Origin: Planctomycetaceae bacterium
GTDB lineage: Bacteria; Planctomycetota; Planctomycetia; Pirellulales; Pirellulaceae
NCBI GenBank assembly: GCA_007694185.1
Contig: RECD01000148.1
Span: 1 to 64,000, forward strand
Direction of reading: 5' to 3'
Length of the DNA: 64,000 nucleotides
Of the stretch, positions 34,807 through 48,200 are shown one piece after another. Position numbers and translations under genes: made by a program. How positions within the stretch are numbered: position 1 is the first letter of the stretch; each line of letters opens with the position of its first letter. The notes beneath the pieces were generated by a model. That model had not been told where the DNA came from and ran no database searches. It was given only the letters and a program-made list of their open reading frames with translations.

Positions 34807-36564
34807 CTACTCCTGGCCGCCGGCGTGAGCCGGTTGCTGGGCCGGCACTTTCTCGGAAGCTTCGTCTGGCGACTCAATCGGATTGAGGAAGATGTAGTTC
34901 TCGGCATCCTCATCCCACCCCAGTCCGGTGAAGTCATACGGATCGCCGACAACCGGCGGACGAGAAAAGTTGTAGTACGGTGGCGGGCTCGTGCATTGCC
35001 ATTCGAGCGTCACACCACCCCAGGGGTTGGGTGGCGCCTGCTTGCCATTGAACAGCGAGTAAAGCAACACCACACCGGCGATCAACAGCCCGATTCCGAG
35101 GATGAACGCACCGACGCTGCTCACCTGGTGCAGGAACGCGAATTCCGGATCGTAAGTCGCGTAACGTCGCGGCATGCCCCGACTGCCCAGTACGAATTGG
35201 GGCAAGAAGGTGATGTTGAAGCCGAGGAAGACGATCAGACAGGAAATTTGCCCTCCCAGTTCGCTGAACATCTTGCCGGTCATCTTCGGCCACCAGTGGA
35301 ACAAACCACCGAGGAACGCGATCATCGTTCCGCCCATCATCACGTAGTGAAAGTGGGCGACGATGAAATAGGTGTCGTGAAGGTGCAGGTCGACCGACAA
35401 CACACCGAGAAACAAGCCGGTCAAACCGCCGATCGTGAACAGGAACAGGAACGCGATCGCATAGCACATCGGCGTCGTCAGGCTGATCGAACCCTTGTAG
35501 AGGGTCGCCAACCAGTTGAACACCTTGATCGCCGACGGGATCGAAACCGTGAAAGTCAACGCGCTGAAGATGATCGTCGTCAACGAGCTCATGCCGCTGG
35601 TGAACATGTGGTGTCCCCAGACGAGAAATCCGAGCAGCGCGATGGCGATCGAGGAATAGGCGATGAATCGGTAACCGAAAATGTGCTTGTGCGAGTGTAC
35701 GCTGATCAGCTCGCTGATGATGCCGAAGGCCGGCAAAATCATGATGTACACCGCCGGGTGGCTGTAGAACCAGAAAAAGTGCTGGTAGGTCACCGGGTCG
35801 CCATTGAACTCGGGGTCAAAGATCCCGATGTGCATCGTCCGTTCGGCGATCAGCAGCAGCAGCGTGATGCCGAGGACCGGCGTCGCCAACACCTGGATGA
35901 TGCTGGTCGAGTAGGTGGCCCACAAAAACAGCGGCATCTTGAACCAGGTCATCCCCGGCGGTCGCATCGTGTTGATCGTGACGATGAAATTTAGGCCCGT
36001 GAAGATCGAACTGAACCCCAGCACAAACGCACCCAAGGTGGCCAGGATGACAGAGGTCTCCGTCGTCGTGCTGTAGGGCGTGTAGAAGGTCCAGCCGGTA
36101 TCCAAGCCGGTGCCCATCAAGGCACCGACGAAGAACAAAGCACCGATCACCCACAGGTAGAAACTGCTCAAGTTCAATCGCGGGAAAGCGACGTCCTTCG
36201 CACCGAGCATCACGGGTACGAGGAAATTACCTAACGCCGCCGGGATGCTCGGGATGATGAACAGGAACACCATGATCGCCCCGTGCAACGTGAACACCTG
36301 GTTGTAGGTGTCGTTGTCAGCGAACAGGGCACCACTGGGCGTGAACAGGTGGGCCCGAATGCCCAGGGCCAACAACCCGCCGCCAAAGAACGAAGTCAGG
36401 ATGCCGACCAGGTACATCAACCCGATCCGCTTGTGGTCCAAGGTACAGGCCCAGCTCAGCACGCCGGTGCTGTTCTTGAGATAATTGTCGCTATCCGAAA
36501 TGGCACCGGGATTGAAACCCCGACTCCGTCCGACCGTATGCTCGGCCATGATCTCGATACCCAA
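34807..36564 (-). CDS. coxA: Cytochrome c oxidase subunit I, A2 type
   Basis: Catalytic heme-copper subunit that reduces oxygen and pumps protons. Twelve-helix protein of 585 residues with heme ligand regions [10 protein letters not shown] and [17 protein letters not shown], and the copper-site motif FYSHPAVYI. Where A1 enzymes have the D-channel Glu (HPEV) this one has Ala271, preceded by Tyr267-Ser268. That YSHPxV pattern defines the A2 subfamily, as in the caa3 oxidase of Rhodothermus. Start may be the second Met (MAEHTVG, 36549). Last gene of the block, followed by a terminator; no subunit III gene is next to it. Confidence 0.96.
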
Positions 36565-36640: not shown

Positions 36641-37726
36641 TTACTCGCTCAATGACTTGAGGAACGCGATGATGCTGTCGATGTCGTCATCCGAAAGCTG
36701 ACCCTTGTAACTCGGCATCACCGGGTTGTAACCGCTGACCACCAACGCCTTCGGCTCGATGATCGATTCGCGAATGTACGCCTCGTCAACTTTCCCTTTG
36801 GTGCCGTCGGTGAACTCACGATCACTGCCGAAACCGCCCAGGAAACTTGGGCCGACCCGACGGCTGCCGTCGAGCGAGTGGCAAGAGCCACAGCCACGAC
36901 GCTCGTACAGCAATTTGCCGTACTCCGCAGGCAAGACCCCGTCAGGGCGAACGCTGTACTTCTTGATCCAAGCGTTCAGGTCCTCGCGGGTCTCGTGTAC
37001 CACCACGACGGTCTGCATCTTGGAGTGATCCTTGCCGCAGTACTCGGTGCAGTACAGGTCGTGGAACCGATAACCGTCTTCCGTGAATTGGTACTTCTCG
37101 CGATCGAAGACGCCATCGTTATTTTCTTTCGCGTCGGCCCAAGCTTGCTCCAAGTCCTCGTCGCTGACCCGTTGGCTCGCCACCTTGGGGTGGAACCACA
37201 TGTCGTTGAACCGACCGGGAACGATGTCCCGTTTCACCCGAAATGCCGGGATGAACAGACTGTGGATGACGTCGCTCGAGCGCATCGTCAATTGGGTCGG
37301 CTGGTCATTCAGGATGTGCAATTCGGGGTGGATCACGCCACCGCCGTAATCGACCGCCCAACCCCATTTGAAAGCCTTAACCGCCAGCGTGTCGGCGTTG
37401 TCGGGCACCTGCTGCTGATCGATGTAGCCGAGCGCACCCTTGGCGAAAATCCAAACCAGCAGGAAAGAAGGGAGAATCGACCAGGCGATTTCGAGCGGCG
37501 TGTTGTGAGACACCTGGCTTTCCGCCGGCTCCCCTTTCTTCTTCATGAACCGAATCGTGAAATAGACCAAGGCGAACGTGATCGGCACCATGAAGAAAAT
37601 GCAGATCCAAAGGACCAACATGAAGGTCGAATCGACCTGGTCGCTGAAGGTCGATGCCGATTCTGGAAACCAAAATCGGTCGGTGTAGTCGCCAAGCAAA
37701 TGGGAGCCAGAAATCATCGCGATCAC
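36641..37726 (-). CDS. coxB: Cytochrome c oxidase subunit II with fused cytochrome c
   Basis: Electron entry subunit of caa3 type. Two N-terminal transmembrane helices precede the cupredoxin domain, whose CuA site is CTEYCGKDHSKM. A C-terminal cytochrome c domain has heme motif CGSCH and axial Met in NPVMPSYKG. It can thus accept electrons directly from Alternative Complex III or a soluble cytochrome. Length 361 residues; MISGSHLL at 37717 is an alternative start. Sits 76 bases upstream of coxA. Confidence 0.95.
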   Translation of the reverse strand: MIAMISGSHLLGDYTDRFWFPESASTFSDQVDSTFMLVLWICIFFMVPITFALVYFTIRFMKKKGEPAESQVSHNTPLEIAWSILPSFLLVWIFAKGALGYIDQQQVPDNADTLAVKAFKWGWAVDYGGGVIHPELHILNDQPTQLTMRSSDVIHSLFIPAFRVKRDIVPGRFNDMWFHPKVASQRVSDEDLEQAWADAKENNDGVFDREKYQFTEDGYRFHDLYCTEYCGKDHSKMQTVVVVHETREDLNAWIKKYSVRPDGVLPAEYGKLLYERRGCGSCHSLDGSRRVGPSFLGGFGSDREFTDGTKGKVDEAYIRESIIEPKALVVSGYNPVMPSYKGQLSDDDIDSIIAFLKSLSE

Positions 37727-37812: not shown

Positions 37813-38772
37813 CTAAACCGCCGAATGACCGCCCCAGTCAACATCAGGCGAGGCCGATGAGCCCGAAGTTTTCGTCGCGCGGATCGACGCGGCCCGTTTG
37901 CGGCCGAGCCAGTACGGCAACAGTGTAAACAATAAAACCGTCACGGTGATTGCGGCAGCAAGTCGCATCAGCCGCCATGCGGCGACAACGTAGCTGCCAC
38001 GTTCCGGGTCGTAGGTAAAGCAGAGCATCATGAACTGGTCAAATCGCGTCCCGATGGTGCCGTTGCTGGCGTCCATCAGCGCCAACTTCGTCTGCTCGGG
38101 CGGGAACGCCACATCGAGCGAATAGCGGGAAATCACGCCGTCGGGGGATATAAACGCCAGCATCGCGGCATGAAAATATTCCCCCGATGGGGCGTCGTAG
38201 GTGTACCGAAACCCGACCGAGTCGGCGAGTCGATGAATCGCCGTTTCTCGAGCGGTGCAAAAATGCCACGCCGATTCGGCTCCCGGCTGTTCGGTCAGTT
38301 GCTGCACGTAACGGGCTTTCGTTTGATTCACCCGCTCGGTCGACTCCTTCGGGTCGATGCTGACGGTCAGCATCTGAAAGTCGCGACCCAGCCGCAAATC
38401 GAGCCGGTTGAGCGTCTCGACCAAGGCGTTCAACTGCACGTTGCACAACATCGGGCAATCGCTGTAGTTCAGCGTCAGCAAAACGGGACGTTTCCCGTCA
38501 AAATAATGGCCCGTTTTGGTCGCCTGCCCACGCGAATCGATCAGCGGGATGTCGAGCGGGATCGATTCGCCCAACTTTTGGTCGACCGTTACCTGCTCTA
38601 CTTCGCGCGGAACCCGGTTGTTCAGTTGAGCCCACAGCGGCGAATCACCACTCAGCGAGAGGACACAAGCGGCCAAGCAGGCGATCCACCCGGTGATCCC
38701 GAGATGCGGGATTGTGGAGCGGGGTCCGCGAGCGGAATCAGGTGCCATCGGTCGTTTCGGCATGGGTCTCAT
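37813..38772 (-). CDS. SCO1/SenC-type copper chaperone
   Basis: Delivers copper to the CuA site of subunit II. Thioredoxin-like domain with the copper-binding CxxxC in YSDCPMLCNVQL and the distal His in GEYFHAAML. A signal/anchor lies at residues about 25-48 and a second hydrophobic helix near the C-terminus (AAAITVTVLLFTLLPYWL), so it is probably membrane-tethered, with the domain outside. Length 319 residues. Overlaps the small membrane protein gene by 35 bases and precedes coxB, as expected for its job. Confidence 0.92.
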   Translation of the reverse strand: MRPMPKRPMAPDSARGPRSTIPHLGITGWIACLAACVLSLSGDSPLWAQLNNRVPREVEQVTVDQKLGESIPLDIPLIDSRGQATKTGHYFDGKRPVLLTLNYSDCPMLCNVQLNALVETLNRLDLRLGRDFQMLTVSIDPKESTERVNQTKARYVQQLTEQPGAESAWHFCTARETAIHRLADSVGFRYTYDAPSGEYFHAAMLAFISPDGVISRYSLDVAFPPEQTKLALMDASNGTIGTRFDQFMMLCFTYDPERGSYVVAAWRLMRLAAAITVTVLLFTLLPYWLGRKRAASIRATKTSGSSASPDVDWGGHSAV

Positions 38773-39126: not shown

Positions 39127-40413
39127 TCAAAGGTTCTCAAACGCGAGCGATTCGGGGAGCCGCGGGTCGCGGACGGCCAACACCTTGATCTGTTTGCAGC
39201 GGATGAACCACAGCAACCCACCAGTGTAGAGGCCGAGCATGCCGAGGGTCAAAAGGGCCGCCGCAAGCAGACCGCCGAACCCACCCAGCGTCTTACCGAA
39301 CTCAGGCATGACGATCCAGTAAAGCTCGACGAAGTGAACCACCAACAGGTAAATCGACCAAGCGAAGACCAAGTTCGGACGCCGGCGGACGTGGCGCGAC
39401 AACAATCCCAGGAACGGGAACATCCAGTGGAAGAAGATCAAGGCGTACGAGAGCGTCTGCCAATTTCCCTGCAAACGGGTGTAAAACCACTCGGTTTCTT
39501 CTGGGATGTTGGCGTACCAGATCAGCATGAACTGGCTGAAGGCGATGTAGGTCCAGAAGGTGACGAAGCCGAATAGGAATTTCCCGAGGTCGTGGTAGTG
39601 CTCGACCGTCACTTCGTCGCGGATCGCGCCGCGGGATTGCAACAAATAGGTCGTAGCCGCGATCGCGCAGTGAGCCGCCAAAATGCTGCCGGCGAAGAAA
39701 TAAACGCCAAACATCGTGCTGAACCACATCGGCGCCAGACTCATCAACCAGTCGAACGCCGCGAAGGTGGTGACCAGCGAGAAGACCATCACCGCAGGGC
39801 CGCTGCGGGCCTGCATCCGCTCGGTCAATGACAGCGCGCCGGTTTCGTCCTGCAAGCGGCTGAGCTTGAAGTAGTAAATCGCTAGACCGGAGAGCAGCAC
39901 CAGGTAAATCACGGAGCGGAGGGTGAACCAACCGCTGTTCAGGTACCGGAGCTTCTCGGCCCAGACCAGCTGGGGGATCCCGTGGTGATCGCCGAAGGAC
40001 GCGTCACTCCAGCGAAACAGCACCCCCGAATCGCTCCAGACCGACAGCAAGATCGGAATGAACAGGATCGACAATGCCGGGATGGCGATCATGAACAGTT
40101 CCGCTACTCGGCGGATCACGACGCTCCACCCCGCCCGGCAAAGGTGCTGGATCAGCACGAAAAAGAGGCAACCGAGCGAAATCGAAAAGCAGAAGGTGAA
40201 AGCCACCAAGTAGGCCGATAGGGTGAACGACCAGGGGCCGCGCGTCTGGCCATGAACCTCTGACGTCGGCCCGAACAGCAGCCCCATGATCAGACCGATG
40301 GCCAACAACACGCCACCGATGCCGACCAAGGGGACGCCGAGTGCGGCCAAAGATTCGGGCAGCTTGAACGAAGGATCGTCGGCCGATTTTGGGTGGTGGG
40401 TGTGGTGGGCCAT
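39127..40413 (-). CDS. actF: Alternative Complex III subunit ActF
   Basis: Quinol:cytochrome c oxidoreductase membrane subunit related to ActC/NrfD. 428 residues with about ten transmembrane helices; an N-terminal His/Lys stretch (MAHHTHHPKSADD) precedes the first. The IWYANIPEETEWF region and HWMFPFLGLLSRHVRR are typical of ActF. It lies after the ActD-ActE fusion, as in other Act clusters. ActF lacks cofactors and is thought to help form the quinol side or proton path. Confidence 0.9.
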   Translation of the reverse strand: MAHHTHHPKSADDPSFKLPESLAALGVPLVGIGGVLLAIGLIMGLLFGPTSEVHGQTRGPWSFTLSAYLVAFTFCFSISLGCLFFVLIQHLCRAGWSVVIRRVAELFMIAIPALSILFIPILLSVWSDSGVLFRWSDASFGDHHGIPQLVWAEKLRYLNSGWFTLRSVIYLVLLSGLAIYYFKLSRLQDETGALSLTERMQARSGPAVMVFSLVTTFAAFDWLMSLAPMWFSTMFGVYFFAGSILAAHCAIAATTYLLQSRGAIRDEVTVEHYHDLGKFLFGFVTFWTYIAFSQFMLIWYANIPEETEWFYTRLQGNWQTLSYALIFFHWMFPFLGLLSRHVRRRPNLVFAWSIYLLVVHFVELYWIVMPEFGKTLGGFGGLLAAALLTLGMLGLYTGGLLWFIRCKQIKVLAVRDPRLPESLAFENL

Positions 40414-40528: not shown

Positions 40529-42424
40529 TCATTCGCTCGGGTCGGTGGTGGGGGCGGCTGCGGCCGCTTCCGCCGCCTCGGCGGCACGCTTCTGCTCCGC
40601 TTCCTCGGCCCTCTGACGCTCGGCTTCCGCAGCCGCGGCCAGTTTGGCATGAACTTGGGTTTGCAACCGCTTCAACTCGTCACGCTTGTCGACCGGCAGG
40701 TCCTCCAGCTCCGCGTTTTGGCTCGCCTGCAACGCCCGCACGTAGGCGACAATCGCCCAGCGATCCTTGACGGAGATCTGCGACGCGTATCCGGGCATCT
40801 TGCGAATCCCGTTGCTGATCGTGCTGAACAGCTTGCCGTCCGGGTAGGCGTCCGCGAGCAACGTGTCTTGGTGCATCGACGAGGGTTGCACCCACGCCGT
40901 CGCCAAGATCCGCTGAGCCCGACGGTTGACCAAACCGTTGCCCCGCCCGTCATTGCCATGGCAGGTCGCGCAGTAGATCTCGAACTGCGTCTTGCCCCGT
41001 TCCATCAATTCCACCGACAATGCCAGCGGGTTTCTTTCCAGCCAAGGGGTCGTATCCTCGGGCATGGTCGGCGGAACGTTCGCATCAGCGGCCGTCGGTT
41101 CTGCTGCCGGTTCGTCTGCCGGGGCAGGCTCACTGGGCGTTGTGGGTTCGTTCGCCGGGGCAGGTTCCGTCGCTGGGGCAGGCTCACTGGCCGCCGCAGG
41201 TTCTGATTCTGGTGCCGGGGCGGGTTCCGTCGCGGCCGGCTCGTCCTTCATCTCTTCGACAGGCTTCTCTGTCGGCGGTTGATCTTCGGCCGGGGTTTCA
41301 GGCTGCGGACTCTCCGGGCTCGGATCTGTCGGCTCGGGTGTATCACCAGTCGGCTCGGCCGGCGTCGGATCCTCTGGCTTGGGAGCGTCACCCGGAGGAT
41401 CCTCCTTGGCAGGTTCTTCCGTGGTTGGCTCGGCGGGGACGGGATCGTCGCTGCTGGGCGCGTCCTCCTGCGAATCGCCTTCGGCCGGTTCGCCCGCAGT
41501 TGGCTCCGCCGGATCGGCGGGGGTTTCCGGATCGTCGGGATTCAGCAGCGCTCGGACCAATTGCCGGGCACGACCAGAGTCGCGCCGGGCCAACTCTTCC
41601 ATGTCGATCCCGGTATAAAAATCGAGATCCTCGTCGAATTGTCCGCGAGCGATCGTGCCCGGCACGTCCGGACGCATCGCGCGTCCGTCGCCGAACAGCG
41701 ACGTGGTCATTTGGGCACCCTTGGCGGGCGAGAAGTCCATGTCGAAAAAGACGTGGAATCTCGGCTGACTGCTGTTGGTCACCCGCATCCGGGCGACTAG
41801 CAACAGCGGGATCAGCGACAGGAAAATGACCGAACCGAGCACGACCCAGATCGCCTTCGGCGCGACCGTGCTGGAATCGTCCTCGAAGACATCCTGCAGG
41901 TGAGAGCCGCCGGCATTTTCGAGCAACTTCACGACGCCGTCACGCTTGAACCGTGGGTCGGCGGAATCGATGAAGAGAAAGAACTTGTCGTCCGTCGCCC
42001 GATCGAACCGCGGGTCGGTGAAAATCGGGTTGCTGAACTTCGGCAGCCGGTTGAGGGCCAACATCCCGAAGAAGGCGCCGAACGACGCCAACAAAATCGT
42101 CAACTCGAAACTGACCGGGATGAACGCCGGCATCGAGAAGAACGGTTTGCCCGAGATGATGTAGGGATAATCGAACGTGTTCATCCAGACTTGCATGACC
42201 ACGCCGATCGTGGTCCCGATCAGCCCGCAGGCGAGCACGATCCAGGGCAGTCCGGTCGGCTTGATCCCGAGCGCCCTATCGATCCCGTGGACGGGGAACG
42301 GCGTGAACGCATCGGTCTTGGTGTAACCGGCGTCACGAACCCGCTCGCACGCCGCTAGCAGCGTGTCGACCGCGTCGAACTCGGCATACACGCCGTGCAG
42401 TTTTTGGTTGGTCTTGTCGGTCAT
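40529..42424 (-). CDS. Fused Alternative Complex III subunits ActD-ActE
   Basis: 631-residue fusion. Residues 1-170 are ActD (DUF3341): HGVYAEFDAVDTLLAAC, two helices, FFLFIDSADPRF. A third helix (about 195-213) starts ActE, with the ActE phrase RPDVPGTIARG. About 160 residues rich in Pro, Glu, Ala and Thr (about 295-455) split ActE. The heme domain then follows: ERGKTQFEIYCATCHG with CATCH, and likely Met ligand in KMPGY. A charged Ala/Glu-rich tail ends the protein. In most Act operons ActD and ActE are separate genes. Start ATG 42424, 15 bases after the actC stop. Confidence 0.9.
   Translation of the reverse strand: MTDKTNQKLHGVYAEFDAVDTLLAACERVRDAGYTKTDAFTPFPVHGIDRALGIKPTGLPWIVLACGLIGTTIGVVMQVWMNTFDYPYIISGKPFFSMPAFIPVSFELTILLASFGAFFGMLALNRLPKFSNPIFTDPRFDRATDDKFFLFIDSADPRFKRDGVVKLLENAGGSHLQDVFEDDSSTVAPKAIWVVLGSVIFLSLIPLLLVARMRVTNSSQPRFHVFFDMDFSPAKGAQMTTSLFGDGRAMRPDVPGTIARGQFDEDLDFYTGIDMEELARRDSGRARQLVRALLNPDDPETPADPAEPTAGEPAEGDSQEDAPSSDDPVPAEPTTEEPAKEDPPGDAPKPEDPTPAEPTGDTPEPTDPSPESPQPETPAEDQPPTEKPVEEMKDEPAATEPAPAPESEPAAASEPAPATEPAPANEPTTPSEPAPADEPAAEPTAADANVPPTMPEDTTPWLERNPLALSVELMERGKTQFEIYCATCHGNDGRGNGLVNRRAQRILATAWVQPSSMHQDTLLADAYPDGKLFSTISNGIRKMPGYASQISVKDRWAIVAYVRALQASQNAELEDLPVDKRDELKRLQTQVHAKLAAAAEAERQRAEEAEQKRAAEAAEAAAAAPTTDPSE
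41065..41540. repeat. Degenerate Pro/Glu/Ala/Thr-coding repeat inside actDE
   Basis: Imperfect short repeats with units such as EPAPADEP, PTEEPAKED and GDTPEPTDP, reading in the minus-strand frame. In DNA these appear as recurrent GGTTCGTCxGC and GGGGCAGG words. They lie inside the ActE half of the fusion and keep the frame. Confidence 0.75.
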
Positions 42425-42439
42425 GGGTATCGATGAACG

Positions 42440-43843
42440 TCAGTGATTGCCGTGATGGTGATGAATTTGGCCGGCCAAAGTCGCTTTCACTTCGGCCATG
42501 TTGATCACCGGCATGAAGCGACAGAACAGGAGAAACAGGGTAAAAAACAGCCCGAACGAGCCGACCAGCATCGACCAGTCGACCCAGGTGGGACTGAAAT
42601 AACCCCACGAACTGGGTAGGTAATCGCGTGACAAACTGGTCACGACGATCACAAACCGTTCGAACCACATCCCGATGTTGACGAAGATCGAGATCACGAC
42701 GATCCGCCACGGGATCGTGCGGTTCGCTTTGAACCAGAACAATTGGGGGCTGATCACGTTGCAGGTGACCATCGTCCAGTACGCCCACCAATAGGGTCCG
42801 AAGGCCCGGTTGACGAAAGCGAACTTTTCCTCGGTGACCTGCCCGTACCAGGCGATGAAAAACTCGGTGCCGTACGCCAAACCGACGATCGTGCCCGTCG
42901 CGAGGATGATCTTACACATGTTCTCCAAGTGCCGAACCGTGATCAGTTTCTCCAGCGAGAAGATCGAACGGGCCGGGATCATCAACGTCAACACCATCGC
43001 GAACCCGCTGAAGATCGCACCGGCGACGAAATAGGGCGGGAAGATGGTGGTGTGCCAACCGGGCACTTGGCTGACCGCAAAGTCGAACGACACGATCGTA
43101 TGCACGCTCAGAACCAGCGGGGCGGCGAGCGCCGCGAGCAACGCGTAAGCCTTTTCGTATCGCATCCAGTGGCGGGACGAACCCGTCCAACCGAGCGCTA
43201 AAATGCCGTAAGCCATCCGCCGCCATTTGTTCTTGGATCGGTCACGGAAAGTCGCCAGGTCGGGGATCATGCCCATGTACCAAAACAGCAACGACACCGT
43301 CCCGTAGGTGCTGACCGCGAACACGTCCCACAACAGCGGGCTACGGAATTGCGGCCACATCCACAGGTTCAAGCTGGGGTAAGGCGCCAACCAGAAGGCG
43401 AGCCAGGCGCGGCCGACGTGAATGCCGGGGAACGTGCCCGCACAGATGACCGCGAAGATCGTCATCGCCTCGGCAGCCCGGTTGATGCTCGTCCGCCAGT
43501 CCTGTCGGAACAGGTAGAGGATCGCCGAGATCAAGGTCCCGGCGTGACCGATCCCGACCCAAAAAACGAAGTTGACGATCGGCCAACCCCAGAAAACCGG
43601 GTTCATGTTCCCCCACACGCCGACGCCGGTGTAAATCAGGTAGGCGATGCAGATGCCGAACCACGAGGCCAATGTCGCGGAGATCAGAAAGCCGATCACC
43701 CACGCGGGGCTGGGAGGCCGCTCCGCGATCTGCGACACCGACTCGGTGATCGTGTGGTAGGTCGAATCACCGAGCACCAGCGGGGCGCGTTCGCCCGGCC
43801 GTTCAACGGTGTTGTCGAGTCCTTGGGGTATTGCGAGCGACAT
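42440..43843 (-). CDS. actC: Alternative Complex III subunit ActC (NrfD family)
   Basis: Quinol-interacting membrane subunit, 467 residues and about ten helices. Family landmarks are [42 protein letters not shown], and [28 protein letters not shown]. Such NrfD/PsrC proteins pass electrons from quinol to the ActB iron-sulfur chain. The C-terminus is His-rich ([10 protein letters not shown]). Located between actB and the actDE fusion in canonical order. Confidence 0.94.
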
Positions 43844-43956: not shown

Positions 43957-46900
43957 TCAGGAACCCGCGGCCGCATCGGCCGGCGTCTCGGTCTCGTCGT
44001 GCCCGTGATCACCGTGCCCGTGGTCGCCGTGACCGTGGTCGTCATGCCCGTGATGCTTGGGCTCGGCGTAATCGACCAAGTCACGCAGTTGGAAACTGGT
44101 CATCAGCCGCGGATGCGGGTTACGGATCTTGGCCAAATATAGCGTCCGGGGCTTCGTATTGAGCTGCGTCAGCACCCCGTAAGCCCGCTGGTCGGCCTGC
44201 AACCGGGTGACGGCAGCTTCGGGATCGGTCAAATTGCCGAACTCGATCGCCCCGCTGGGGCAGGCCATCTGGCAGGCGGTCTTAATCGCACCGTCCCGGA
44301 TTTGGTGTTCACCATTCTTGCGGGCTTCGATCTTCCCCTTTTCGATCCGCTGCACACAGAAGGTACACTTCTCCATCACCCCTCGGCCACGCACGGTGAC
44401 TTCCGGGTTCAACACCATCGCTTGCAACTTGCGATTGGCGTTTTCGATGTTGCCGGGGAAGGCGTCGATACCGTAACCGACGCCGACCTCCGAGTTGTAG
44501 TTGAAGTAGTTGAACCGACGGACTTTGTAGGGGCAGTTGTTCGCACAATACCGCGTTCCGATACAGCGGTTGTAGGCCATCGCGTTCAGCCCTTCGTCGG
44601 TGTGTACCGTCGCCGCGACCGGACAGACCTGCTCGCAAGGGGCGGTTTCACAGTGCTGACAAGCCATCGGCTGTTGCACGATGCCCGCCTGGTCTTCGTT
44701 CCCCTGGAAATATCGGTCGACACGGATCCAGTGCATCTCGCGGCTGCGGATAACCTGTTCCTTGCCGACGATCGGGACGTTGTTTTCGCTCTGGCAGGCG
44801 ACGACGCAAGCGTTGCAGCCGATGCACTTGTTCAAATCGATCGTCATGCCCCACTGGGGCAAGTGCGGCCGGGTCTCGCGGATCACCGCCATCACTTCCC
44901 GGAATGGCGACCCCTCCACGCCGACCTTCGGGACGTGTGGCCCTTTGTCCTCGACGAAGTGTGGGTTCTTTTCCAATAGCGGCAAAGTGCCTTCGCGGAT
45001 CAATGAGAAGCTGCGGTCCTGCGTCTCACCTTTACCCAACTCATCGATGGCCCAGTGATTCTGGGTGCTTGCGATCGTGTGATCTCGATACCGTGGGCGA
45101 GCCTCGATGTCGCCCGCAAATCGCATTTGATCGGCTCGACGAAGGGGCGACAGGTTCGTGCCGACGACATCCACACCCTGACCTTCAAAGCCGCCGACCA
45201 TCCCGGCTCGCACACGCCCATAACCGAAGGCGACCGTCACGACCCCCGGGGCACACCCGGGCATTTCGTAAACCGGCAATTCCAAGGACGTGTCGCCGCG
45301 GCGGAGGGCGACGATCGAACTGTCTTTAACTTTCAACTCGCGGGCCGTGCGGGGGCTCATGATCGCGACGTTGTCCCAAGTGACTTTGGTCAACGTTTGC
45401 GGCAATTCCTGGAGCCAGCCGTTGTTGGCAAATCGCCCGTCGTAGAGCCCGTCGGCGGGAACGAACAGCACATCGATCCGGTCCTGGTCGACTTCCAAAG
45501 TCGCCACCGGGGCGGCGTCCGTGAGCGAGTCGCTGGTGCCGACGTAGGCGGCTTCGAGGTGATCAAGTCTGATCTCTTCGTGGAAGCCGTCGTGCAGCAG
45601 TTTCCGCCATTGCCGCTCGCTCAATGCGGCGCCGGCCAACTCGTCCACGGTCCGTCGCACGATCGCGTCACCGCTGATTTCGTCCTCGTCGAGCATGATC
45701 GCGATCAGCTCGATCGCCGAACGGCCGCCCAACAGCGGCAAAATCTGCGGTTGCCCCACCCCGTACGACCCGTCGTCGGCGATGCAGTCGCCCCACGATT
45801 CCAGCGGGTGAGCTTGGGGCAAAGACCAACGGCACAAGACGGCCGTCTCGTCGTCGTATTCACCCAAGTAGACCGAGTTCTCGACGCTCGCCAACGCTTC
45901 CCCGATCGCGACGTCTCCAGGGGCGGCGTAAGCCGGGTTGTCACCCAAGATCAGCAGGCTTTCAATCTTGCCGCCACGGAGTTGCGTGGCCAGGTCGACA
46001 AGGGAGACGACGTCTCCCAGTTCGGCGTCGGCCAGCGGGACGAACTTTTGGAGTTTCCCGAGCGAACCGAGTTTGCTGTTGATCCGGATGCCCGCGGCGA
46101 CAGCCTGAGCCCCGAGCGATTCGCCGACGACAACGACCGCCGAATCGCCGGCCGCGGTCAGATCCGAGGCGAGAACCTCCAAAAAGGTCTCGAGCTGGAC
46201 GGCCGGCTCCAATTCATCGAAACCGACCTCCGCAGGGGACGACGCGTCTGCGGTCGCGTCGGACGCGGCATCGAGTCGACGTTCGATTTCCGCCAACAGC
46301 GCCGTCATCTGACTCGGTCGCAGCGCCAACCTGGTGTCGGCGGCCGCACCGGTGTTCGTGTAACCCCCTTCGACGACATACAAGCGGCTCATCCCGCCTG
46401 CGGGATCGCGACTTTCCGCATAGCCGTGGGCGTTCCGGACAAACCCCGGGTCGTTACCCAAGATGTCGGCTTCGACCGTCAACACGATCTTGGCGCCGCT
46501 CAGGTCGAGCGATTGACGGCCCGCCTTGCCGATCGCGGCCAAGGTGGCTTCCCGCATCACGTCGCCATGCACACCGTCGAAGCGACAGAGCGTCGCCTGA
46601 GGCAATCGCTCCCGCAGTTTGCCGACCATGCGGGCCAAAGACGGGGACTGAGTCGGAGGCATCAGGACCGCGAATCGCGCCCCCCCGTCCGTTTCGGCCA
46701 TCCGCACCAAACCGCGGGCGTAAGTGTCGAACGCTTCCCAATCGGCGCCGACCCCTTTGCCCCGCTGTTCTCGCAACCGCAGCGGCAAGGCGTCATCACG
46801 AGCCCGGTCGGGATCGTACAAACCGAGGATGGAAGCCTGCACGTAGGCGTCGGTGCCGCCACGGCCCCCCGGGTGATCCGCGTTCCCTTCCACCTTGATC

Positions 46901-47259
46901 GGCCGACCGTCGACGTTCGTGACCGTCAGATTGTGAACCCGGCCCGCCAATTCGAAATTGGTCGATCGCCCATACGATTCGCCGGGAATGCGGCCTTCGG
47001 GGCGGATCACAAACGGGGCGATGATTTCGGTGGGGTACCGACAACCCGCGGCACCGGCCAGCGACAATGACGCGCCCATGATCTGCATCCATCGACGCCG
47101 CGAGACGCCGTCGGGGAGTTCCGACGCCGCGACGGGGAACTCGCGATGGAGGAAATCCTCCACGAACGCGTCGTCCTGATGCAGCTCCTGAAGGCTTCTC
47201 CAATAGCGAGCTCGAGAGGTCGCGGCTGCCGGCGAATCGGATCGAGAGGGGGATGTCAT
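43957..47259 (-). CDS. actB: Alternative Complex III subunit ActB
   Basis: 1100-residue fusion of a molybdopterin-oxidoreductase-like domain (without evident Mo-cofactor function in this family) and a ferredoxin-like domain. A twin-arginine-type segment (SRRRWMQIMGASLSLAGAAG) near residue 55 indicates Tat-dependent export. C-terminal cysteine motifs KCIGCNACVVACQSE, CQHCETAPCEQVCPV, CIGTRYCANNCPY and KCTFCVQR can hold several clusters. It ends in a His/Gly/Asp-rich tail of about 20 residues with nine or more His, which may bind metal. It links quinol oxidation in ActC to the ActA/ActE hemes. Confidence 0.95.
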   Translation of the reverse strand: MTSPSRSDSPAAATSRARYWRSLQELHQDDAFVEDFLHREFPVAASELPDGVSRRRWMQIMGASLSLAGAAGCRYPTEIIAPFVIRPEGRIPGESYGRSTNFELAGRVHNLTVTNVDGRPIKVEGNADHPGGRGGTDAYVQASILGLYDPDRARDDALPLRLREQRGKGVGADWEAFDTYARGLVRMAETDGGARFAVLMPPTQSPSLARMVGKLRERLPQATLCRFDGVHGDVMREATLAAIGKAGRQSLDLSGAKIVLTVEADILGNDPGFVRNAHGYAESRDPAGGMSRLYVVEGGYTNTGAAADTRLALRPSQMTALLAEIERRLDAASDATADASSPAEVGFDELEPAVQLETFLEVLASDLTAAGDSAVVVVGESLGAQAVAAGIRINSKLGSLGKLQKFVPLADAELGDVVSLVDLATQLRGGKIESLLILGDNPAYAAPGDVAIGEALASVENSVYLGEYDDETAVLCRWSLPQAHPLESWGDCIADDGSYGVGQPQILPLLGGRSAIELIAIMLDEDEISGDAIVRRTVDELAGAALSERQWRKLLHDGFHEEIRLDHLEAAYVGTSDSLTDAAPVATLEVDQDRIDVLFVPADGLYDGRFANNGWLQELPQTLTKVTWDNVAIMSPRTARELKVKDSSIVALRRGDTSLELPVYEMPGCAPGVVTVAFGYGRVRAGMVGGFEGQGVDVVGTNLSPLRRADQMRFAGDIEARPRYRDHTIASTQNHWAIDELGKGETQDRSFSLIREGTLPLLEKNPHFVEDKGPHVPKVGVEGSPFREVMAVIRETRPHLPQWGMTIDLNKCIGCNACVVACQSENNVPIVGKEQVIRSREMHWIRVDRYFQGNEDQAGIVQQPMACQHCETAPCEQVCPVAATVHTDEGLNAMAYNRCIGTRYCANNCPYKVRRFNYFNYNSEVGVGYGIDAFPGNIENANRKLQAMVLNPEVTVRGRGVMEKCTFCVQRIEKGKIEARKNGEHQIRDGAIKTACQMACPSGAIEFGNLTDPEAAVTRLQADQRAYGVLTQLNTKPRTLYLAKIRNPHPRLMTSFQLRDLVDYAEPKHHGHDDHGHGDHGHGDHGHDETETPADAAAGS

Positions 47260-47391: not shown

Positions 47392-48081
47392 TTAACGGTG
47401 ACAGACCGCACAATGAACCTGCGGCTCGATGTGCTTCTCTTCGATCAACTGCTTGGCAGCCTCATGGGGATCGACCCCTTCGGGCCAAGTCCAGTCGAGC
47501 TTCGTCACGAACTCGGCAGGCCGGATGTGCGGGGTCGGGTCCCGGTGGCATTCGATGCACCACGCCATCGACAATTGCTTGTCCTGATGAACCACTTCCA
47601 TCTGGTCGATGCGGCCGTGACAGGACACGCAACTCACCCCGGCATGGACGTGCGCGGCGTGGTTGAAGTACACGAACTCGGGCAGGTTATGGACCCGCAC
47701 CCAAGCGACGCTCTGCCCCGTCTCCCAACTCTTGTGAATCGGCGCCAGGCGAGGGCTCGCCTGCTGGACGGCGGCGAGGTCGGTCAGGCCTTGAGCATCC
47801 GCGGGGCTGTGGCAATTGATGCAAGTTGCCGTCGGCGGGATCGCCGCGTGAGCCGCATCGAAAACGGTGTTGTGGCAATACCGGCAGTCCATCTTCAATT
47901 GGCCCGCGTGGATCGCGTGGCTAAAGGGAACCGGTTGGGTCGGCTGATAACCGACATTCAGCGTTTCGGGATCGGTAATCAATCCGCCCATCGCCCCGGC
48001 GTAGACGGCCCCACCGACGGCGGCGACGCCCAGCAGCATCAGGGTGCGGTTGATCCAACGTGGGAAAAGAAAACGTTCCAT
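47392..48081 (-). CDS. actA: Alternative Complex III pentaheme cytochrome ActA
   Basis: 229 residues from ATG 48081 (MERFLFPRWINRT). One N-terminal transmembrane anchor (about 12-32), then five CxxCH heme motifs: CRYCH, CINCH, CVSCH, CIECH, CAVCH. Five c-type hemes is the ActA hallmark. The in-frame extension to 48198 does not look like protein. First gene of the Act/cox block; it probably shares its message with actB, 132 bases downstream. Confidence 0.94.
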   Translation of the reverse strand: MERFLFPRWINRTLMLLGVAAVGGAVYAGAMGGLITDPETLNVGYQPTQPVPFSHAIHAGQLKMDCRYCHNTVFDAAHAAIPPTATCINCHSPADAQGLTDLAAVQQASPRLAPIHKSWETGQSVAWVRVHNLPEFVYFNHAAHVHAGVSCVSCHGRIDQMEVVHQDKQLSMAWCIECHRDPTPHIRPAEFVTKLDWTWPEGVDPHEAAKQLIEEKHIEPQVHCAVCHR

Positions 48082-48200
48082 AACTCCGAATATCAACTCC
48101 ACATTCCGGGGGACCGGGATGGTGATGCGATTGAACCGATGCCAAAAGCACGGCAAGAAAACGACGATCCGAGCTCGGCAAGGATGTCTCTCGGACACGC

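Follow-up and report, generated by a model that had tools for sequence, protein, structure and literature searches.

A fused ActD-ActE subunit with a long, predicted disordered insert in a planctomycete alternative complex III

The last electron-transfer step out of alternative complex III (ACIII) differs between the species that have been studied. In Rhodothermus marinus, ActD has both termini in the cytoplasm; ActE is a lipoprotein of the periplasm, and its N-terminus is intertwined with ActB and partly covers heme I of ActA (PMC5928083). The ActE heme has His/Met ligation and lies about 9 Å from heme V of ActA, and in the supercomplex ActE adjoins the oxidase cytochrome with no insert in its chain (PMC5928083). 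In Flavobacterium johnsoniae, deletion of ActE leaves aa3 activity intact. ActA carries an extra mobile heme there, and the authors of that work suggested that ActE may be essential in R. marinus (PMC8552683). A protein in which ActD and ActE are fused was inferred in Melioribacter roseus in 2013 (PMC3534657) and identified by proteomics in 2017 (PMC5492636).

The window, meaning the whole 64,000-nucleotide stretch of DNA analyzed, encodes ActA to ActF together and in order. The operon is intact and runs ActA, ActB, ActC, ActDE, ActF, a small protein, SCO1, CoxB and CoxA (Table 1), a layout of ACIII with a caa3 oxidase that is the same as the R. marinus arrangement. ActDE is probably a subunit of an ordinary respiratory ACIII feeding the oxidase encoded beside it. 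We note separately that a gene cluster described elsewhere as unlike any known complex also follows the ordinary act operon order A to F; it encodes a 5-heme cytochrome, a molybdopterin/4Fe-4S protein, NrfD, ActD, a CcoP-like protein and a quinone-binding subunit 2 (PMC10732223).

The actDE gene is a single uninterrupted ORF of 631 codons whose ATG is 16 nt past the ActC stop. The sequence-only reading had placed ActD and ActE in this one frame, and both domains do match. The Pfam ActD domain (PF11821) covers residues 11–175 with an E value of 2e-65 and 220 bits against a gathering cut-off of 25.7, and two transmembrane helices lie between its alpha/beta halves. R. marinus ActD matches residues 8–189. 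Pfam Cytochrome_CBB3 (PF13442) covers residues 474–562 (E 2e-12). R. marinus ActE (6f0k_E) matches in two pieces, residues 199–272 and 461–584, and therefore the insert is inside ActE, between its arm and its heme domain, and not at the fusion joint. The arm carries GTIARG at 256–261 and FYTGID at 269–274, and the monoheme domain has the CxxCH and the probable Met ligand of ActE, with C485, C488, H489 and M543 invariant. In the AlphaFold model, most of the ActD and heme domains have a pLDDT of at least 95, and a Foldseek search with this model finds ActD and ActE from each of the four ACIII sources with solved structures (6lod_D with a TMt of 0.90). A single ActD and a single ActE-like domain are present in the whole genome; a search for a second copy of either elsewhere in the genome found none. 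The Ala/Glu/Arg-rich helix of about 46 residues that follows the heme domain is also present in the nearest relatives.

Table 1. Coordinates in the window of the parts of ActDE and of the surrounding operon.
Feature	Position	Strand	Evidence
actDE, fused ActD-ActE gene, 631 aa	40529..42424	-	single ORF; Pfam ActD and cytochrome c; matches to both R. marinus ActD and ActE
ActD domain, residues 1-180, two transmembrane helices (59-85, 98-124)	41885..42424	-	PF11821 E 2e-65; fold matches 6lod_D, 6f0k_D
Third transmembrane helix, residues 190-215, at fusion joint	41780..41857	-	predicted helix; hydropathy 2.71; no lipobox Cys
ActE arm, residues 217-275 (DMDF..GRAMRPDVPGTIARG..FYTGID)	41600..41776	-	matches 6f0k_E residues 10-83; conserved in all clades
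Insert, first part, residues 276-297, predicted helix conserved in genus	41534..41599	-	helices 275-281, 283-294; alignment
Insert, low-complexity Pro/Glu/Ala/Thr/Asp part, residues 298-457, predicted disordered	41054..41533	-	composition; pLDDT ~42; indel-rich between congeners
ActE monoheme cytochrome c domain, residues 458-577	40694..41053	-	PF13442; 6f0k_E E 8.9e-39
Heme-binding CATCH, residues 485-489	40958..40972	-	CxxCH at 485; invariant
Probable axial Met ligand M543	40796..40798	-	essentially invariant with insert, without insert and in unfused proteins
C-terminal Ala/Glu/Arg-rich helix, residues 578-623	40556..40693	-	predicted helix, pLDDT 88-98 over most of length
ActA, pentaheme cytochrome, without extra N-terminal heme domain	47392..48198	-	6f0k_A E 2e-53; five CxxCH
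ActB, molybdopterin-like and iron-sulfur domains	43957..47259	-	
ActC, NrfD-like quinol-binding subunit	42440..43843	-	PF03916
ActF	39127..40413	-	6f0k_F E 1e-68
SCO1/SenC copper chaperone	37813..38772	-	PF02630
CoxB with C-terminal cytochrome c domain (caa3 type)	36641..37726	-	COX2 and Cytochrom_C; one CxxCH
CoxA	34807..36564	-	PF00115

The ActD-ActE fusion itself is already known and is a common variant within Planctomycetota. ActD is present in 217 of 392 Planctomycetota genomes, and it is fused to ActE in 65 of the 139 Planctomycetota ActD loci examined, which does not bear out the novelty implied by calling the two subunits normally separate. To compare the fused proteins, we use the gap, which is the distance in residues from the arm to the heme domain. 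The proposed comparison of act operons across planctomycetes found the fusion again in the congeners L034, L035 and L038 (gaps of 77, 96 and 105) and in Rhodopirellula baltica BR-MGV and R. maiorica (61 and 57), with the insert in one main fused clade. Fusions with no insert occur in Myxococcota/Polyangia (L173–L175) and Hinthialibacteria (L166). A plasmid collection gave only partial matches below 60% identity, and among the annotated matches listed, DUF3341 and cytochrome c are encoded by separate genes. Some fused proteins are extended at the C-terminus. Five (L005, L006, L007, L008 and L017) have a second cytochrome c domain there and two CxxCH per chain, and one (L043:1465-3162) measures about 250 residues between the beginning of its heme domain and the chain end, versus about 110–160 in others; its tail beyond the cytochrome has no Pfam match.

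The fusion appears to have a simple origin. On a tree of 213 rows of ActD plus the heme domain there are at least five changes between fused and separate states, a number that is approximate because this was a quick tree without site mixtures. Every fused row falls inside one 130-row clade with a support of 99. Within that clade, unfused ActE proteins have a transmembrane anchor resembling the fused joint (IPPxxI..R..(S)..PR.H...DMD). A lipobox Cys was sought in the clade and none was found, the Cys hits in three unfused and four fused proteins falling within the helix. Of the 81 proteins outside the clade, 53 show a Cys at the lipobox position; a different transmembrane anchor is found in several others, such as those of Verrucomicrobia. 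ActDE has no lipobox and carries the transmembrane helix 190–215 in place of the R. marinus lipoprotein anchor, which is a feature of that species and not of all ActE; the substitution is common to all the fused and unfused sister proteins. About half of the unfused sisters that were examined have an actE start no more than 10 nt from the actD stop. A read-through fusion is topologically possible since the anchor helix enters the membrane from the cytoplasm, while with a cleaved lipoprotein signal the parts would not stay joined. We infer that actD and an adjoining actE lost the intervening stop codon when ActE was already held by its N-terminal transmembrane helix. That former anchor would now be the third helix of one chain, replacing the lipid anchor of R. 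marinus ActE. Passing from separate to fused would then be a small step, and this gives a simple account of how the two could fuse: every fusion in our sample occurs where ActE was anchored by a transmembrane helix.

What is unusual is the long, acidic and drifting insert of one clade, of which the ActDE described here is the longest example found. The whole insert is residues 276–457. Its low-complexity core, residues 298–457, has the length of about 160 residues and the position between GTIARG/FYTGID and the heme domain that had been recognized from the sequence at the outset. The core is 28% P, 18% E, 18% A, 10% D and 10% T, with a net charge of −41 and with no aromatic residue and no Cys. 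Its pLDDT of about 42 predicts disorder, in agreement with the flexibility that had been suggested for it. The gap is 196 in this protein and 13–15 in insert-less proteins, and it is hypervariable within the genus (77–196). It reaches at least 40 in 49 of 87 fused proteins and in 17 of 125 unfused ones; these counts are descriptive only, as related rows are not independent and a few are near-duplicates. Most of the large gaps are in one 53-row fused clade (support 95), and the other fused clades have gaps of 13–34. Because of this confinement, the insert is evidently later than the fusion and separable from it.

The sequence of the insert is not conserved among relatives, although Pro, Ala and acidic character are common to them, and several have EKPAEDKPAE-like repeats. 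Between congeners, the low-complexity part is 37–50% identical over the few residues that align, with 91–121 gap columns, and the heme domain is 75–82% identical, with dN of 0.11–0.17, dS above 1 and dN/dS of about 0.1. With dS near saturation, we conclude only that there is strong purifying selection on the domains. There is an EP-based repetition in the protein at residues 395–443. Expansion of a DNA tandem repeat was considered as the origin of the insert and rejected, as the gene shows a single 27-bp match of period 12. Among 199 ORFs in 332 kb of the same genome, 7 contain Pro-rich low-complexity stretches, ActDE included (the other six are in L145, L148, L154, L156, L158 and L159); they are uncommon in the genome but not special to ActDE. 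That the insert persists in some form throughout a large clade could be a sign of a selected function.

The reading that we favor, at a probability of about 0.7, is that the insert forms a disordered loop or tether, weakly constrained, that links two docked parts. Since ActD ends in the cytoplasm (PMC5928083) and the predicted helix 190–215 leads the chain out, the insert and heme domain should be periplasmic, as had been proposed. The ActE arm would be pinned on ActA/ActB in the way known from R. marinus, and the heme domain would dock on ActA and hand electrons to the cytochrome domain of CoxB. The insert would be the disordered acidic stretch running from the pinned arm to the docked heme domain, under little constraint of sequence or length and dispensable for the step from ActE to CoxB. 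At most, it may loosen the hold on the heme domain, which would then leave its site at times; on this analysis some mobility of the domain is plausible. Heme domains with the insert and those without it have the same conservation pattern (Spearman 0.85; mean information of 2.98 and 2.84 bits), which fits the presence of the same docking surfaces in both. A pentaheme ActA and a CoxB with a cytochrome c domain are also found in operons with an insert-less fused ActDE or a separate ActE. Therefore, the insert is not needed for the ActA–CoxB partner pair.

Two ways in which the intact chain itself might be illusory were weighed. An assembly or frameshift artefact is refuted for practical purposes by the relatives. 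The same fusion is present in independent genomes of the genus, family and phylum, and the congeners, R. baltica BR-MGV and R. maiorica all have the same single frame. It is also very improbable that ActD and ActE end up as two proteins, whether through an internal start or through cutting by signal peptidase or a protease. The joint helix ends in LLLVARM, which could resemble a signal peptidase site, and a disordered insert would presumably be protease sensitive, but in the unfused sisters this same helix is retained as an anchor. A Shine-Dalgarno and start codon precede the helix in frame in only 4 of the 65 fused loci, against 6 in the +1 frame and 0 in the +2 frame, and an internal start was rejected on this absence of in-frame enrichment. 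The fused ActDE of M. roseus was identified by proteomics (PMC5492636), in a passage that is still compatible with processing.

The remaining alternatives give the insert a function. The sequence-only reading had the heme domain, on a long flexible arm, shuttling electrons toward the CoxB cytochrome domain. In this view the insert would be a functional tether that allows the domain to move from ActA heme V to CoxB in the manner of cytochrome cy. The arrangement is suggestive: a predicted disordered stretch of 160 residues lies between an arm expected to be pinned and a folded heme domain, the gap is at least 40 in 49 of the 87 fused rows, and CoxB carries a cytochrome domain. Cytochrome cy has an unresolved linker of 69 residues, of which about 45 suffice for respiration, and linkers of 45–69 residues can serve a mobile cytochrome in a III–IV supercomplex (PMC7876108). 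ActDE resembles it in having a membrane anchor, the predicted helix 190–215, and a long predicted disordered linker at 298–457. We nevertheless consider shuttling unlikely. No association of the insert with oxidase partner type was seen, the same ActA and the same type of CoxB occurring with and without it in fused and unfused relatives; the length drifts from 77 to 196 within one genus; and R. marinus ActE reaches its oxidase with no insert (PMC5928083). Together with the equal conservation of the heme domain, this leaves the shuttling arm without specific support. Equally doubtful is a role in assembly or crowding, in which an acidic flexible stretch steers partner binding or supercomplex formation. 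Such a stretch would be comparable to the acidic regions of some bc1 complexes; the literature on acidic cytochrome c1 regions yielded nothing usable. The core charge of −41 and the Pro/acidic character that the insert clade shares in spite of its differing sequences are in its favor, but some relatives have Lys-richer, less acidic inserts of a KPAEE type, so charge is not strictly kept.

Compared with known systems, the loop or tether that we favor sits in an otherwise familiar complex. R. marinus ACIII (PDB 6f0k, PMC5928083) has the same pentaheme ActA without an extra heme domain, the same ActB, C, D, E and F, a caa3 oxidase partner with a cytochrome domain, and an ActE whose arm and heme domain match; it differs in that ActD and ActE are separate, ActE is lipid-anchored, and about 7 residues stand between the matched parts in place of an insert. 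M. roseus Mros_0042 (PMC3534657, PMC5492636) has the same ActD and ActE in one protein, likewise with three predicted transmembrane helices, one CxxCH in its C-terminal part and a heme-copper oxidase beside it. M. roseus keeps an additional separate actE (Mros_0040), in contrast to the single ActE-like domain found in the genome studied here. The ActDE proteins of R. baltica (L161) and R. maiorica (L160) share the fusion, helix, arm, heme domain and operon, with inserts well short of the gap of 196 seen here. Cytochrome cy of Rhodobacter capsulatus (PMC7876108), with its transmembrane anchor, long flexible linker and c-type heme domain moving between complexes III and IV, is a model for how a shuttle would work. 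It belongs to a different complex (bc1/cbb3), we claim no homology, and unlike it ActDE has the ActE arm, expected to be pinned, between helix and linker. The extra mobile ActA heme of F. johnsoniae is absent from ActA here. There is a small chance that one planctomycete clade evolved a tethered mobile terminal heme of drifting tether length, with ActE swinging between ActA and the oxidase or other acceptors. If true, such a swinging ActE would add a third solution to the fixed ActE found in R. marinus and the mobile heme domain that ActA has in F. johnsoniae. The planctomycetes offer a natural series of ActE linkers that range in length from about 13 to 196 residues while the operons are otherwise alike.
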